Of a DNA stretch of 64,000 nt, positions 2,945 through 63,907 are shown piece by piece. The position numbers were made by a program, and so were the translations under genes. Below the pieces are notes generated by a model, which was not told the origin of the DNA, searched no databases, and was given only the letters and a program-made list of their open reading frames with translations. Source of the stretch: Candidatus Merdivicinus intestinigallinarum (GTDB lineage: Bacteria > Bacillota > Clostridia > Oscillospirales > Ruminococcaceae); the NCBI GenBank assembly GCA_018713335.1, contig DVOW01000050.1, forward strand, positions 62,001 to 126,000, in the 5' to 3' direction. Every line of letters begins with the position of its first letter. Position 1 is the stretch's first letter.

Positions 2945-3513
2945 ACGGTGTAGATTTAGAAACCTCCCGGCTTTTGCTGCGGCGGTTTGAGATGGATGAC
3001 CTGGAGGACCTTTACGAATATGCCTGCCGCCCGGAGGTGGGGCATGCCGCCGGGTGGAAGCCTCATGAGTCCCGGCGGGAAACAGGGCAGATTTTAGCGG
3101 GGTTCATGCACGGCACGGAGGTTTGGGCCGTGGTCTGGAAAGAAACCGGCAAGGTTATCGGCTCTGTGGGCCTCCACGGGGATTCCCACCGGAGCAGCTC
3201 CCCGGACGTGAAAATGCTGGGCTACGTCCTTTCCCCGGATTACTGGGGCAGAGGCGTTATGACGGAAGCCGCCCGGCGGGTGATCTCCTACGCCTTTGAG
3301 GAACGGGGCGTCCGGCTTGTCAGCGTTTCTCATTTTTCCTTTAACAATCGTTCCAGGCGGGTCATTGAAAAATGCGGCTTTGCCTATGAGGGGACCTTCC
3401 GGCGGTGCTTTCTGCGCTATGACGGGGAGTGGCTGGACGAGTGCTGCTACTCCATGACCCGGGAGGAATATTTTCTGGAAGGGGCGGAGGATTTTGCTGA
3501 AAGCGGTATATAG
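2941..3513 (+). CDS. GNAT N-acetyltransferase, RimJ/RimL type
   Basis: Predicted acetyl-CoA-dependent acetyltransferase of 190 aa. The ATG at 2941 follows a good SD (AGGAGGG) and overlaps the aroC stop. Visible family segments are the N-terminal ETSRLLLRRF, the central GYVLSPDYWGRGVMTEA acetyl-CoA-binding loop, and NNRSRRVIEKCGF with the YEG that usually follows. The substrate cannot be read. It sits inside an aromatic operon and overlaps both neighbours, so it is co-transcribed, but it has no obvious pathway role. Confidence 0.85.
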   Translation: MNGVDLETSRLLLRRFEMDDLEDLYEYACRPEVGHAAGWKPHESRRETGQILAGFMHGTEVWAVVWKETGKVIGSVGLHGDSHRSSSPDVKMLGYVLSPDYWGRGVMTEAARRVISYAFEERGVRLVSVSHFSFNNRSRRVIEKCGFAYEGTFRRCFLRYDGEWLDECCYSMTREEYFLEGAEDFAESGI

Positions 3514-4836: not shown

Positions 4837-5703
4837 ATGAAGTGGAAGCTGGCAGTCATCGGCGACCCCATCGCCCACAGCCTGTCCCCTGTGATTCAGG
4901 GGCAGATCATGGAAATCCTGGGGGTTTCCGGGGAATACAAGGCCGTTCATGTCAAGGCGGAGGAGCTGGCCGGGTTTATGGAATACGCCCGGGAAAATCT
5001 CTACGGCTTTAACGTCACCATCCCCCACAAAGGGGCCGTCATCCCGTTTTTGGACGAAATCGACCCCTATGCCCAAAGCTGCGGGGCGGTGAACACCGTC
5101 CGGATCCGGGACGGGAAAATGACCGGCTTCAACACCGACGGCGACGGCATCCGGGCGGCCTTGCTGCAAATGGGGGCGGATTTTGCCGGGAGCCGGGTGG
5201 CGCTGCTGGGGGCTGGAGGCGCGGCCCGGTCCATCTGCCGGAAGGCGCTTAACTGCGGGGCGGGATCGGTGCGGGTCTTCTGCCGGGATTTGGAAAAGGG
5301 GAGCCTGCTCACCGGCGGGGACAGCAGGGGGGAGGTTCTGCCTTTTTCTGCGCTGTCGGCGGAAAACTGCGGCGGCTGGGCGGATATTGTCATCAACGCC
5401 ACGCCTTTGGGCATGGAGGGGATCGGGCAGGATTTTGCAGATTTTTCCTTCCTGGACGGCGGGAAGCCTTATGTCTGCGACATCGTGTACAAGCCCGCCG
5501 AAACGAACCTTTTAAAGGTCTGCCGGGAACGGGGGATAACCTGCAAAAACGGGCTGGATATGCTGGTTTACCAGGCGGTTTACGCCTTTATGCATTTCAC
5601 CGGCCTGTCTTTTGACCCGGATAAAGTGGCCCGCCAGATTACATCTGGAGGAAATCCGACGCGGCCGCACAGCCTTTGTCCAACCGCTGGAACGGCGCGA
5701 TAA
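4837..5703 (+). CDS. aroE: shikimate dehydrogenase (NADP+)
   Basis: Reduces 3-dehydroshikimate to shikimate. Motifs are the substrate site IAHSLSPVIQ and NVTIPHK with catalytic Lys, NTDGDG, the Rossmann loop GAGGAARS, and NATPLGM. SD is GGAGGAAT before the ATG. The last ~18 residues (GGNPTRPHSLC...) do not resemble the family C-terminus and run towards the repeat region, so the 3' end may have drifted or been extended by rearrangement. No convincing terminator follows. Confidence 0.95.
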   Translation: MKWKLAVIGDPIAHSLSPVIQGQIMEILGVSGEYKAVHVKAEELAGFMEYARENLYGFNVTIPHKGAVIPFLDEIDPYAQSCGAVNTVRIRDGKMTGFNTDGDGIRAALLQMGADFAGSRVALLGAGGAARSICRKALNCGAGSVRVFCRDLEKGSLLTGGDSRGEVLPFSALSAENCGGWADIVINATPLGMEGIGQDFADFSFLDGGKPYVCDIVYKPAETNLLKVCRERGITCKNGLDMLVYQAVYAFMHFTGLSFDPDKVARQITSGGNPTRPHSLCPTAGTAR

Positions 5704-5781
5704 ACGCGCCGTCATGGGAAGGTAATCGCCTTTAACCAGCACCCTTGTGTGCCTGATTACATAGGGGCGTTTTTACAAATT

Positions 5782-5859
5782 CGCGGGCTGGGCAACACCC
5801 CTACAAACCCTTCCGAAACATCTCAGCAAAATTGTAGGGGCGGCCAATGGCCGCCCGCG
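5782..5859 (+). repeat. REPIN-like element A: two inverted REP palindromes around a 29-nt linker
   Basis: Left REP, minus strand 5782-5804, begins GTAGGGG and is degenerate. The linker is 5805-5833 and contains TTCCGAAACATCTCA. Right REP, plus strand 5834-5859, is GTAG followed by the perfect palindrome GGGCGGCC-AAT-GGCCGCCC and GCG. The linker recurs in elements B and C. The GTAG foot matches the known hallmark of REP sequences processed by RAYT transposases. Family assignment is inference from structure. Confidence 0.75.
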
Positions 5860-6075
5860 ATTTTTCCGAAACGATCTGTTTTTGGGGGAATGTGGGGCGC
5901 GATGCCCACATCGCCCCGGGAAAACCGGACCTGTGCGGAATACAGTGGGCGGATGTAGGTATCCGCCCCTACAAACTCTTCCGAAACGTCTCAGTAAAAT
6001 TGTAGGGGCGGCCAATGGCCGCCCGCGATTTTCCCGAAACGATCTGTTTTGGGGGGAATGTGGGGCGCGATGCCC
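5805..6075 (+). repeat. 103-nt direct duplication (5805-5907 and 5973-6075)
   Basis: The two segments lie 168 nt apart, align without gaps and differ at about five positions by eye. Each starts at the REPIN linker, runs through the right REP, and continues through CCGAAACGATCTG and GTGGGGCGCGATGCCC. A further REP-like half (minus-strand GTAGGAACGGATATC) ends at 6090. The rest of 5704-6199 holds no credible gene. Confidence 0.8.
5945..6027 (+). repeat. REPIN-like element B
   Basis: Left REP, minus strand 5945-5972, has stem GGGCGGAT/ATCCGCCC and ends CTAC. Linker 5973-6001 matches element A with three differences. Right REP, plus 6002-6027, is identical to that of element A (GTAG, GGGCGGCC-AAT-GGCCGCCC, GCG). 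Confidence 0.75.
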
Positions 6076-6199
6076 GATATCCGTTCCTACAGTCCCGCGT
6101 TGGCGGCAGCCCCGTGATGTGTGCCTATATCATATAGCCATTCCGGGAAACGGCATCACTTGATGTTATGAATTATAAAATATGCACAAAAATAATGAT

Positions 6200-6309: not shown

Positions 6310-7224
6310 ATGAAATTAGGTTTTGTCAGCGCGATTTTAGCCGATCTCTCTTTTGAGGAAATGATCGATTTTGCCTCTGAAAACGGCTATGAGTGCGTGG
6401 AAGTGGCCTGCTGGCCCAAGGGCAAGGCGGAGCGCCGTTATGCCGGCGTGACCCACATCAATGTGGATGAGGTGGACCAGGCCAAGGCCGCGTATATCAA
6501 CGACTACTGCGCCAAAAAGGGCGTGGAGATTTCCGCCCTGGCCTACTACCCCAACACCATGGACCCTGACCTGGAGAAACGGGCCGTTTACATTGCCCAC
6601 ATCAAAAAGGTCATCAAAGCCGCGAAGCTCTTAGGCGTCGGCACCGTCAACACCTTTGTCGGCCGGGACCCCCACAAAAACGTGGACGAGAACATTGAGA
6701 TTTTCAAGGAAGTCTGGCCGGACATTATCGCCTGCGCCGAGGAAAACGGCATCCGCATCGGCATTGAAAACTGCCCCATGCTGTTTACCAACGACGAGTG
6801 GCCCGGCGGCCAGAACCTGATGACCACCCCGGCCATCTGGCGGAAGCTCTTTGAGATCATCCCCAGCAAGAATTTCGGCTTGAACTACGACCCCTCTCAC
6901 TTTGTATGGCAGCAGATCGACTATATCCGCCCCATTTACGAGTTCAAGGACCGGATCTTCCACGTCCACTACAAGGACATCAAGGTTTACCCCGACAAGC
7001 TCCGGGATGTGGGCATTATGGCGACGCCTTTGCAATATATGTCCCCCAAGCTGCCCGGCCTTGGCGATGTGGACTGGGGCAAATATGTGTCCGCCCTGAC
7101 CGACATCGGCTACGACGGCTACACCTGCATTGAAATTGAGGACAAAGCCTTTGAAGGCTCCTTTGAAGCGGTGAAGAAGTCCCTGATCCTCAGCCGCGAC
7201 TACATGCGCCAATTCGTTATTTAG
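6310..7224 (+). CDS. sugar phosphate isomerase/epimerase (AP endonuclease family 2 TIM barrel)
   Basis: Predicted metal-dependent sugar isomerase or epimerase, 304 aa. I start at ATG 6310 ([13 protein letters not shown]). AGGA at 6294-6297 is spaced 12 nt from it but would abut the track ATG at 6298, and the family begins at this point. Barrel and metal motifs are visible: [28 protein letters not shown] and CIEIEDKAF, giving the Glu/Asp/His/Glu metal set. It is monocistronic with its own cre-like operator and terminator, which suggests carbon-regulated catabolism. The exact sugar is unknown. Confidence 0.85.
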
Positions 7225-7285
7225 CGGCGAGCCGCCGCAGGCAAGACGCCGCGGCCGCACACTCCGCGGGGGACATCCGGGAACG

Positions 7286-7327
7286 GCGGGATGAACCGCC
7301 GTTTCGGCGGAGGTTCCCCGCTTTTTT
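7286..7327 (+). terminator. intrinsic terminator after the sugar isomerase gene
   Basis: Long hairpin of GCGGG, GAACC and CCGCCG arms around TTT, closing with CGGCGG, GGTTC and CCCGC, followed by TTTTTT. Confidence 0.85.
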
Positions 7328-7374
7328 GTTGCCGCAGGCGTAGTACTCCATAATTTGACTACCATAACTGTTCT

Positions 7375-7452
7375 GGGGCGGCCACTGGCCGCCCCTACAA
7401 TTTTGTTGAGATGTTTCGGAAGGGTTTGTAGGGGCGAGCATTGCTCGCCCGC
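7375..7452 (-). repeat. REPIN-like element C, opposite orientation
   Basis: REP at 7375-7398 (stem GGGCGGCC/GGCCGCCC, ending CTAC), linker 7399-7427, and REP at 7428-7452 (GTAG, GGGCGAGC-ATT-GCTCGCCC). The linker is the reverse complement of that in element A with one mismatch in 29, so the whole unit, not just the palindromes, has been copied in both orientations. Confidence 0.78.
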
Positions 7453-21914: not shown

Positions 21915-21940
21915 GTAGGGGCCGGGTTTCCCGGCCCGCA
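21915..21940 (+). repeat. REP palindrome
   Basis: GTAG followed by GGGCCGGG-TTT-CCCGGCCC and GCA. It lies between the VanZ-GtrA gene and the RHH gene; 21941-22068 holds nothing else I can identify. Confidence 0.7.
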
Positions 21941-22068: not shown

Positions 22069-22093
22069 GCGGGCCGGGAGACCCGGCCCCTAC
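22069..22093 (-). repeat. REP palindrome providing the stop codon of the RHH gene
   Basis: Read on the minus strand: GTAG, GGGCCGGG-TCT-CCCGGCCC, GC. It is an inverted partner of the REP at 21915. The TAG of its GTAG foot is the stop codon of the neighbouring minus-strand gene. Confidence 0.72.
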
Positions 22094-22374: not shown

Positions 22375-22399
22375 GCAGGCGCGCAATGCGCGCCCCTAC
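22375..22399 (-). repeat. REP palindrome
   Basis: Minus strand GTAG then GGGCGCGC-ATT-GCGCGCC. Located about 200 bp upstream of the S10 operon promoter. 22276-22591 contains no credible gene. Confidence 0.65.
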
Positions 22400-22626: not shown

Positions 22627-23015
22627 TGCGTGACTGCGACAGATATGCGATGAAGCGAGAGGTTGCCGCCGGCCGTGAGGTCAAGATCCTGTTTTTCGGA
22701 CAGGTCCCAGCGCGGGTAATTTTCGCCGAGTATGTCCGATTTTAAACCGGGCGACAAAAGAGGAATACGATGGAAGTGCCCCATGCTTGTTCTGCTTATG
22801 CGGACTGCGGGCATACTTCAAGGCAAACTGCGCCTGTTGAGGCTGCAAGTGCCCCATGCCTGCCGGATGCGGCCAACAGCGGCGGGGAATGGTTATCGGT
22901 TCGGGCTCCCGGGAAACGACTGCGTTTTTCCGGTTTTTTATTTGTCTGGACGCGAAACACACGGAAACGTGTTCCGCTTGGTCTTGTCCCCAAAAATTCC
23001 GAGGAGGCGATGACA
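22627..23015 (+). promoter_or_regulatory. long structured leader of the S10 operon
   Basis: About 390 nt lies between the promoter and rpsJ. It includes a CCTGT/ACAGG hairpin near 22690-22710, a 13-nt direct repeat AAGTGCCCCATGC at 22774 and 22847, a terminator-like hairpin at 22909-22939, and an ACACG-GAAA-CGTGT hairpin at 22960-22974 within a GGAC/GTCC-closed arm. ORF 22770..23327 in the track merges part of this leader with rpsJ. A ribosomal-protein autoregulatory leader is likely, but the ligand cannot be read. Confidence 0.6.
22909..22939 (+). terminator. attenuator-type terminator within the S10 leader
   Basis: CCGGGAAACG and CGTTTTTCCGG arms with loop ACTG, then TTTTTT, 77 nt before the rpsJ start. 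A terminator inside the leader of an essential operon implies regulated readthrough. Confidence 0.6.
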
Positions 23016-55138: not shown

Positions 55139-55182
55139 ACAAAACAAAACGCCTGCCCCGGGGTAACTCGTGGATGGCGTTT
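55139..55182 (-). terminator. riboswitch expression-platform terminator
   Basis: Minus strand AAACGCC pairs with GGCGTTTT across a 22-nt loop containing CCCCGGGG, followed by GTTTTGT. It lies between aptamer and permease start and implies ligand-induced termination. Confidence 0.65.
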
Positions 55183-55194
55183 GATTTCCTTGGC

Positions 55195-55258
55195 GCGTAG
55201 TCTTCCGGATTCGGCCGGAAGGTAGAAACAATCAGCCCATTTTGCTGAAAATATACGC
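55195..55258 (-). promoter_or_regulatory. purine riboswitch aptamer (guanine class)
   Basis: P1 GCGTA/TACGC, P2 TCAGC/GCTGA with loop AAAATGG, the core GTTTCTACC, P3 CTTCCGG/CCGGAAG with loop CCGAAT, and the J3/1 GACTACG. The discriminating base is C (GAC), so guanine or hypoxanthine rather than adenine. GG of L2 and CC of L3 can kiss. L3 is 6 nt if P3 is fully paired, shorter than the usual 7. Confidence 0.9.
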
Positions 55259-55390
55259 TCTGTTTATCTTTAGTTTACCATATTTCGGCCCGGTTCGCCA
55301 GCCTTTTTCAAAAAATCCATGAAACCGACAAAATCTGTTCAAATCTTTTCAAAAAGGACGTGCAGAACATAGGAAAATCCCGCTTTCCGG

Positions 55391-56199: not shown

Positions 56200-56368
56200 A
56201 TGTTTGTAGGAAAAAGCGTGAGCTTGCCGAAGGAGTAACACTCTCAGGCGCCCGGATGCCGGGTGAGGACTATAAACGGATGCGGCTCTGGAGAACCCCG
56301 TTTCATCGGGTGCCGAAGGTGCAAGGCGGCAAAACCGCTAATCTCTCAGGCAAAAGGACGGAGCAGAA
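56200..56368 (+). promoter_or_regulatory. tandem glycine riboswitch
   Basis: Two aptamers in series. First (~56200-56276): GCCGAAGGAGTAA, then CTCTCAGGCGCCCGG and GAGGAC. Second (~56283-56367): GTGCCGAAGGTGCAAGG, then TCTCTCAGGCAAAAGGAC. GCCGAAGG and CTCTCAGGC are the conserved cores, repeated in order. Followed by a terminator and an AGCS symporter, a standard arrangement. Confidence 0.92.
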
Positions 56369-56413
56369 AAGACGGAAGCTGCCGGCATTTCGCCGGTTTA
56401 CCGCTGTTTTTCA

Positions 56414-63100: not shown

Positions 63101-63590
63101 GCAGGGGAAAGCCCCCGAAACCCAGGCGTCCGCCGAATGCCTGGTGGATATCCAGCTGGAGGCCCACATCCCCGAAACCTACATTGACAACCTGGCCCAG
63201 CGGATCGACGTGTACCGGAAGATCGCTTCTATTAAAGATGAAGCGGACAGCATGGACATCCTTGACGAGCTCATCGACCGGTTCGGCGAGCCGCCCCAGG
63301 CGGTGAAAGGCTTGGTGGATGTGGCCCTGCTGCGGAACACGGCGGCCCGGTTCGGGTTCAAGGAAATTACCCAGAAGGCGGACGCTTTGCAGATGATCCC
63401 GGAAAAGCTGGACATCAATCTGGCGGGGGCGCTGTCCGCCCGGATGAAGGGGCGGGTGACGGTCAACGCCGGAGCGCAGCCTTTTGTTTCGGTGAAGCTC
63501 AAAGGCCAAAGCTCCTTGGACACCCTGCGGGAGGTCATGGGCCAGCTGCAGGCCATTGAAAAGGACTGGAAGCAGGCCGCCGGGAAATGA
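60102..63590 (+). CDS. mfd: transcription-repair coupling factor Mfd
   Basis: Removes RNA polymerase stalled at lesions and recruits UvrA, 1162 aa. TTG start after AAGGGGG; an ATG follows two codons later. UvrB-like N-terminus (FPYREFVYRQMEGVS), RNAP-interacting domain VGDYVVHVSHGIGIFDG (~490), helicase Walker A GDVGFGKTEVALRA (~645), DEEQRFGV, LSATPIPRTLNMAMSGIRDMS, QLRGRVGRSNRRAFAYF, and a C-terminal TRCF domain. Complete. Confidence 0.97.
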   Translation: MKMYATVARRLTQFAQLIEDLKTGRTPALCVGLSAIHKAHFIAAAAEELGRPILVVTQDEVAAARLAADINAMLEEEAAVLFPYREFVYRQMEGVSTEYEQVRLGVLSRIAAGEVKIVTASIHGVMSRTIPKKVLLENTFTISPEQSIPLEELVSRLSKSGYIRRDQVDGVSQFSVRGGILDVFPPKEANPVRIEYWGDDIDTMSYFELDSQRRTDPVDSLSISPANEVVFGEGELFTKLTDFCGKLGDKKVFEAAKAVLQKDIERLDSGMELDSQDKYFPLAYDTFDTVADYFEDAPVFLSERSEMRENARGLFWQYSEDMKILLDEGQLCKGLDSYLLSPEQAEARLMKHRVAMLDTFARAGSGDGLKDLMNISPLQSSGWNGDLKLLHSDLMPLLEEGYCCAVLAGTPKAAANLASDLSKMGLPASYVKDLKAIQYRKVLVLAGTLSAGFEYPQIKFSLTTTGKAVTVAAAPPKKRKGEEIKSLSDLTVGDYVVHVSHGIGIFDGIHKLDLHGIVKDYIKIKYAGADTLYVPVTQLDLVSKYIGPREDSKIKLNRLNSGEWQKTRARVKKAVDEMADELIALYAQRMKVKGYAFSPDTDYQRDFEAHFDYQETDDQLRCIAEIKADMEKETPMERLLCGDVGFGKTEVALRAAFKCVMDGKQCAILCPTTILAWQHYQTLIHRMGNFPVEIELLSRFRSPKEQKAVVKKLETGRADIVVGTHRLVSKDVKFKDLGLAIIDEEQRFGVAHKERFKQMLAGVDMLTLSATPIPRTLNMAMSGIRDMSVIEEPPQNRHPIQTYVLEYDEGVIMEALRRELHRSGQAYYIYNNIENIHSRAAQIKAAIPEARIGVAHGRMAEEELSKIWKQMIDQELDILVCTTLIETGVDVPNSNTLVIENADRLGLSQLYQLRGRVGRSNRRAFAYFTFQRGKVLSEVATKRLNAIREFTKFGSGFRIALRDLEIRGAGNILGTRQHGHMEAVGYDMYLRLLSQAVAEKQGKAPETQASAECLVDIQLEAHIPETYIDNLAQRIDVYRKIASIKDEADSMDILDELIDRFGEPPQAVKGLVDVALLRNTAARFGFKEITQKADALQMIPEKLDINLAGALSARMKGRVTVNAGAQPFVSVKLKGQSSLDTLREVMGQLQAIEKDWKQAAGK

Positions 63591-63907
63591 GCCATCCGGA
63601 ACGGAAACAGAACCGGTTAATGGGGTACGATTATAGTCAAAACGGGGCGTATTTCATCACGGTATGCGTTCAGAACCGGGCGGAAATATTAGAAAAAATT
63701 GTGGGGGACGGCGTTGTTCCCGCGTTGATATCCACGTTAAAAAGAATGATTCATAGGAAAATTGGATTCCCCATATTCCAGCGGTCCTATCACGACCACA
63801 TTATCCCCAATGAACGGGAATATGAGAAATTCTGGAATTGCATTGACGAGACCCGTTATGCTGGGAGAAAGATTGTTTTTATCCGGGTAACGGGAAAACA
63901 TCTGTAA
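63587..63907 (+). pseudogene. REP-associated tyrosine transposase (RAYT/Y1 family), internally deleted
   Basis: 106 aa. RLMGYDYSQNGAYFITVCVQNR is the RAYT N-terminus and IGFPIFQRSYHDHIIPNEREYEKFW with IDE.R..G the C-terminal part. Between IVGDG and PALISTLKRM roughly 60-80 residues are missing, including the strand with the HUH metal motif (usually MPNH-H) that nicking requires. The gene is therefore inactive or a remnant. Its ATG overlaps the mfd stop, probably by chance. Relevant because GTAG-type REPs occur in this window. Confidence 0.75.

Follow-up and report, generated by a model that had tools for sequence, protein, structure and literature searches.

Inverted pairs of GTAG-footed palindromes in a clostridial genome: a putative REPIN population with its RAYT transposase

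Introduction

Three short elements in a 64-kb stretch of the genome of Candidatus Merdivicinus intestinigallinarum (contig DVOW01000050.1, positions 62,001 to 126,000; hereafter the window) raise the question of what is mobile in a pair of hairpins. Elements A (5782-5859), B (5945-6027) and C (7375-7452) each consist of two oppositely oriented palindromes with GTAG feet, separated by a linker of exactly 29 nt, and resemble repetitive extragenic palindromic (REP) sequences. REPINs, inverted doublets of such sequences, are described mainly from gammaproteobacteria. The original prediction nevertheless held that this clostridial genome carries a REPIN population and that, because the linker is conserved, the whole unit seen in A, B and C is the moving part. 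Our analysis supports the first claim and not the second. The reading that we favor, at a probability of about 0.8, is a REP/REPIN system, active now or until recently, with a REP-associated tyrosine transposase (RAYT). In it, the copied unit would be another type of pair, one whose feet lie outside, and A, B and C would be joints between hairpins.

Results

A REP population with an excess of head-head pairs

REPs were counted genome-wide or in an own-genome sample of 458 kb, made up of the window and 394 kb of further stretches that were chosen for REP hits and not at random. This REP-rich sample contained 99 hairpin REPs with the motif GTAGGGG, against 0 in shuffled sequence; the window alone had seven such hairpins, where a first-order shuffle gave 0. 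The GTAG foot was conserved among the genomic copies, with a T preceding it in 91 of the 99. Above a fixed GTAGGG base the inner stems were highly variable and changed in a complementary manner. Across the whole genome, TGTAGGGGC occurred in 191 copies and the reversed pattern in 82.

The short hairpins also occurred as inverted pairs. Head-head (HH) pairs, with the feet outside, were found 23 times genome-wide against 2 in the control (46 against 1 by a looser pattern), had a modal length of 78 bp and were present in near-identical form at several sites. Tail-tail (TT) pairs, with the feet inward, amounted to six in the whole genome. The foot-to-foot spacing of neighboring REPs in the sample was narrow, clustering at 66-82 bp for HH and at 30-31 bp for TT. 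Together with the RAYT gene described below, the excess of REPs over shuffled sequence and of HH pairs over the control bears out the prediction of a REPIN population in a clostridial genome.

A RAYT gene with REPs in and beside it

The genome encodes one RAYT with intact HUH (NHIH) and tyrosine motifs, a protein of 169 aa whose gene lies between an NFACT-like and a valS-like gene. It matched the NCBIfam family REP_Tyr_transpos with E=1e-14 and was 93% identical to the RAYT of Candidatus Merdivicinus excrementipullorum and 87% identical to that of Candidatus Merdivicinus faecavium (Oscillospiraceae). In each of the three other species having the gene, the open frame and the HUH and tyrosine motifs were kept, with an identity of 90-93%. 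When the AlphaFold2 model (pLDDT 85) was compared with the PDB, entry 4er8, the E. coli REP transposase with its REP hairpin, was among the top three folds (E 7e-7) and had the lowest root-mean-square deviation of the leading matches. Motifs and predicted fold thus agree with a Y1 HUH transposase with its catalytic tyrosine.

An HH REPIN directly follows the stop codon of this gene and two REPs lie within its frame, the first of them decayed, so that the genome holds a cognate RAYT with adjoining REPs. The system appears most like RAYT group 4, or TnpA-REP subclass 2.4. A remnant of a second RAYT is found just after mfd (Table 1); at this place the relative G001 has an intact second RAYT and G003 a broken copy.

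RAYT and REPINs occur together

Seven members of the genus were compared, the genome studied here (G000) and six others (G001-G006), of which G001 and G003 are sister species. RAYT and REPINs were both present in G000-G003 and both missing from G004-G006. HH pairs numbered 25 in G001 (1 in the control), 13 in G003 (1) and 2 in G002, and G004, G005 and G006 had 0 each. In a family sample of 81 genomes, 9 had a RAYT match, and 4 of these contained at least two HH pairs; none of the 72 genomes without a match did, which corresponds to p = C(9,4)/C(81,4) = 7.6e-5 (calculated by hand).

Presence and absence of a whole unit could be seen between relatives. In G003, a 98-bp unit consisting of a 20-nt TT joint and a 78-bp HH REPIN lies between two copies of GCCCCTACA, at a site where G000 has a single GCCCCTACA and no unit; this difference may represent a gain or a loss. 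At a second site, REPINs were found in G001 and G003 and none in G000.

Elements A, B and C as probable joints in local clusters

The anatomy foreseen for the three elements was verified: each is a REP(-), a 29-nt linker and a REP(+), and the linkers of A and C differ at one base once the inverted C is reverse-complemented. The further REPs at 21915(+), 22093(-) and 22399(-) were recovered as well (Table 1). Folding z-scores were -2.9 for A, -5.2 for B and -5.7 for C, and an Rfam scan returned no family matching any of them. Their polarity is TT: the feet face the linker and do not lie outside, as they would in a REPIN. An HH pair of 81 bp with one GTGG foot (5892-5972, our own reading of the sequence) is situated between A and B and adjoins the latter.

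A genome search and the sampled stretches yielded no near-copy of the linker beyond A, B and C, the very outcome that the original prediction had named as speaking against it. Two further places resembled it at 76-77% only, and the other TT linkers of the genome had sequences unlike it. The sequence common to A and B amounts to about 110 bp, comprising the linker, the right REP and some 50 nt of 3' flank. The left REP is a different one in each of the three elements although the linker matches, which means that homology ends where the foot of the left REP is reached. The interval corresponding to A and B in G001, with flanks 93-97% identical, contains an unrelated, shorter stretch in which A and B are missing, and C is found at the same place, where its linker is shorter and its right stem a different one. 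Dispersal of the unit as a copied whole was thus not found. Since the linker is restricted to three neighboring places and A and B bear the signs of a local duplication, the elements are best read as cluster joints, most likely formed within local hairpin clusters, and the proposal that the conserved linker marks the whole unit as mobile could not be upheld.

The HH and TT linkers of G000-G003 contain a loose, near-palindromic core resembling GAAACGTTTC, whose best match was above shuffles in both sets. This motif was picked from the same linkers on which it was scored and is therefore only a lead.

Table 1. Hairpin and RAYT features of the window
Feature	Positions	Strand	Remarks
Left REP of A	5782..5804	-	imperfect palindrome; GTAG foot 5804
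Linker of A	5805..5833		29 nt, TT; closest copies solely in B (3 mismatches) and C (1 mismatch)
Right REP of A	5834..5856	+	GTAGGGGCGGCCAATGGCCGCCC; GTAG foot 5834
REP with degenerate GTGG foot	5892..5917	+	81-bp HH pair with 5947-5972; own reading of the sequence
Left REP of B	5947..5972	-	different stem, GGATACCTACATCC; GTAG foot 5972
Linker of B	5973..6001		29 nt
Right REP of B	6002..6024	+	stem as in right REP of A; next ~50 nt also match 3' flank of A; GTAG foot 6002
Degenerate double-foot remnant	6060..6090		GTGG 6060 (+), GTAG 6090 (-)
Left REP of C	7376..7398	-	orthologous copy in G001; GTAG foot 7398
Linker of C	7399..7427		29 nt; 20 nt in G001
Right REP of C	7428..7450	+	stem GAGCATTGCTC, differs in G001; GTAG foot 7428
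REP	21915..21937	+	stem (CCGGGTTTCCCGG) of the same class as the resident RAYT
REP	22071..22093	-	CCGGGTCTCCCGG; HH with 21915 at 179 bp
REP	22377..22399	-	GCGCATTGCGC stem
Second RAYT remnant	63587..63907	+	just after mfd; lacks the HUH-motif stretch between two in-gene REPs

REPs within clostridial RAYT genes

The in-frame REPs of the resident gene turned out to be part of a wider pattern. By similarity to a REP-carrying RAYT, and with search patterns that excluded the REPs themselves, 80 clostridial RAYT loci were found; the RAYT search used an alignment of three sequences, one of eight being too diverse, and for a few loci the record titles may reflect contamination (L224). All 80 carried at least one in-frame REP. 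In-gene REPs are also present in RAYT genes of culturable commensals, Flavonifractor plautii and Gemmiger formicilis (L233 and L235). A (+) REP preceded the HUH motif in 67 loci and a (-) REP lay between HUH and tyrosine in 72 loci as well as in the gene studied here, with both sites occupied in 59. The foot was GTAG in 140 of the 142 in-gene REPs. In the model of the resident RAYT, the peptides encoded by its two in-gene REPs fall in or beside loops, at residues about 40-47 and 94-101.

The stems of the two REPs of a gene agreed at 0.91, against 0.24 when permuted, and REPs flanking the gene matched the in-gene stems in 32 of 46 cases, where 2.5 were expected. Gene relatedness as the only reason for the stem match was rejected, since agreement was still 0.87 with one gene per stem type (0.23 permuted). 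We also rejected the idea that the in-gene REPs are a mere by-product of protein conservation: fewer than 1% of synonymous recodings retained foot and hairpin, which suggests that the hairpins are maintained as nucleic acid. It is possible, and we propose it tentatively, that clostridial RAYT genes hold a built-in, in-frame, REPIN-like pair flanking HUH, whose stems vary between genes and, at the level of DNA or RNA, are kept similar both to each other and to REPs that flank the gene. If so, the target of a RAYT would be an inherited one that changes in step with the enzyme, and the pair might also act as a self-regulating binding site.

At one of these loci (L172), an array of (-) REPs with a period of 64-65 bp was seen at 3109-3303, just after the RAYT gene.

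Other repeats and elements of the window

Another family of dispersed repeats, GACGCGGCCGCACAGCC...CCGCTGGAACGGC...GCCGTCATGGG, is represented in the window at about 5633-5723. Its copies are numerous in G000, G001 and G002 and occur as well in G004, which lacks a RAYT. The window copy lies at the 3' end of a shikimate-dehydrogenase-like gene, whose C-terminus it may alter. Many partial copies of a third dispersed repeat, CCGCGGCCGCACACTCCGCGGGGGACATCCGGGAACGGCGG..., seen in the window at about 7220-7329, are found in G000-G003. Rfam further identified a glycine riboswitch (56278-56371), a purine riboswitch (55178-55278, - strand) and an S10-Clostridia ribosomal leader (22642-22757).

Discussion

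The observations can be combined into the following scenario. The single intact RAYT, a Y1 HUH tyrosine transposase, would recognize GTAG-footed hairpins in single-stranded DNA. The copied unit would be the HH pair, mostly 66-82 bp long, with its feet outside and a loosely conserved inner linker of about 32 nt. New pairs would often land beside existing REPs and thereby give rise to clusters. A and B would then be a TT joint multiplied by tandem duplication together with its flank, and C would be an older joint that a sister species also has, with a different right REP.

Several points weigh against this scenario. No transposition was observed, and the RAYT proteins score under the NCBIfam cut-off (54.6 vs 80). 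Many stems, among them GCGCGCATTGCGCGC, GGCCAATGGCC and GAACTGTGTTC, are unmatched to the resident RAYT, so that for part of the population another, perhaps lost, RAYT or a loose recognition would be needed. A 9-bp direct repeat stands on either side of the 98-bp unit of G003, which makes a slippage deletion in G000 equally possible, and none of the loci obtained from other species covers the site as a third genome to polarize the event. Furthermore, the assemblies are drafts, several of them incomplete, which makes absences uncertain.

The most serious alternative shares the anatomy of the above scenario and differs as to present activity: the RAYTs would be lost or decaying, and only decay and slippage would act on a fossil population today. 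Besides the stems unmatched by the remaining RAYT, the decayed first REP within its gene and the state of the second RAYT, reduced here to a remnant without the HUH core and intact in G001, may be hints in favor of it. The remaining RAYT, however, has its motifs, its open frame and 90-93% identity in three other species, and near-identical HH pairs occupy several sites, and we consider a fossil population the less likely reading. Far less probable is the original view of the TT unit (REP, 29-nt linker, REP, feet inside) as a mobile REPIN, with A, B and C as recent transpositions. The close match of the A and C linkers despite inversion and a distance of 1.5 kb, and a genomic TT spacing that clusters at 29 nt, would be in line with it. 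Against it stand the confinement of the linker to A, B and C, three unlike left REPs, a 3' flank that A and B have in common like local duplicates, TT pairs about a quarter as frequent as HH pairs, and a left REP and linker of C that are already at the same place in G001. We give marginally less credit still to the possibility that these are host-selected RNA or DNA elements, such as terminators, mRNA stabilizers or gyrase sites, spread by recombination without a transposase. That the window repeats sit between genes, that GC-rich hairpins fold well and that tandem duplication accounts for A and B would all fit such elements. An unpaired GTAG foot that is conserved while the stems are free to vary with compensation, an occurrence that tracks the RAYT gene in genus and family, and hairpins retained in frame within RAYT genes would not. 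A RAYT-driven REPIN system with A, B and C as joints remains our preferred reading.

What is described here is a well-supported clostridial REPIN system together with its transposase; the two co-occur across a genus and a family, and a unit that is present or absent between species could be defined. It shares many traits with the REPINs of P. fluorescens SBW25, which are inverted, over-represented REP doublets of about 70-110 bp, in part in tandem clusters together with their flanks, and linked to a RAYT (Bertels and Rainey 2011, PMC3116915). Here, too, we found over-represented inverted doublets of fitting length, clusters and a tie to a RAYT, and the A/B/C locus may be viewed as a cluster of REPINs in which tandem duplication took place locally, of the kind described there. 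The host class, Clostridia, and a far wider stem variety within one genome set the present system apart, as does the TT polarity of A, B and C when compared with the HH doublet of SBW25. The dominant pair of our genome, however, has the polarity given for P. fluorescens REPIN dimers, which is HH (Di Nocera 2013, PMC3733652).

The same study defined a super-family of GTAG-tagged REPs with a short stem and a loop of 2-4 nt, occurring as singles or as HH, TT or head-tail (HT) dimers with spacers mostly of 20-100 bp; its main text names no Clostridia. The GTAG foot, the short hairpin and the occurrence as singles and dimers agree with this description. As a rule of thumb, HH spacers were conserved there and TT spacers variable. 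The constant linker of A, B and C is an apparent exception, which we would explain by local duplication.

The fold predicted for the Merdivicinus RAYT agrees with that of E. coli TnpA-REP (4er8). The latter, however, is of the group 2 type with mispaired stems, and the sequence match is weak (E 0.12). A closer relative would be TnpA-REP subclass 2.4, which corresponds to RAYT group 4 of Bertels 2017 in the mapping given by Quentin 2018 (PMC6006769) and whose stem bottom likewise consists of three G-C pairs. In-gene REPs cannot be regarded as unreported, since REPs within the frame, located for the most part between HuH and Y, were published for this subclass in the same work. The two-site, stem-matched arrangement was not found in the literature covered, including the parts of that paper that were consulted. 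The present addition is the pair: a second in-gene REP before HUH, in opposite orientation and, like the first, at a fixed site, with stems that match mutually and with the flanking REPs. Such stem-matched in-gene REPs, added to what is published for subclass 2.4, allow direct testing of how RAYT and REP remain matched.
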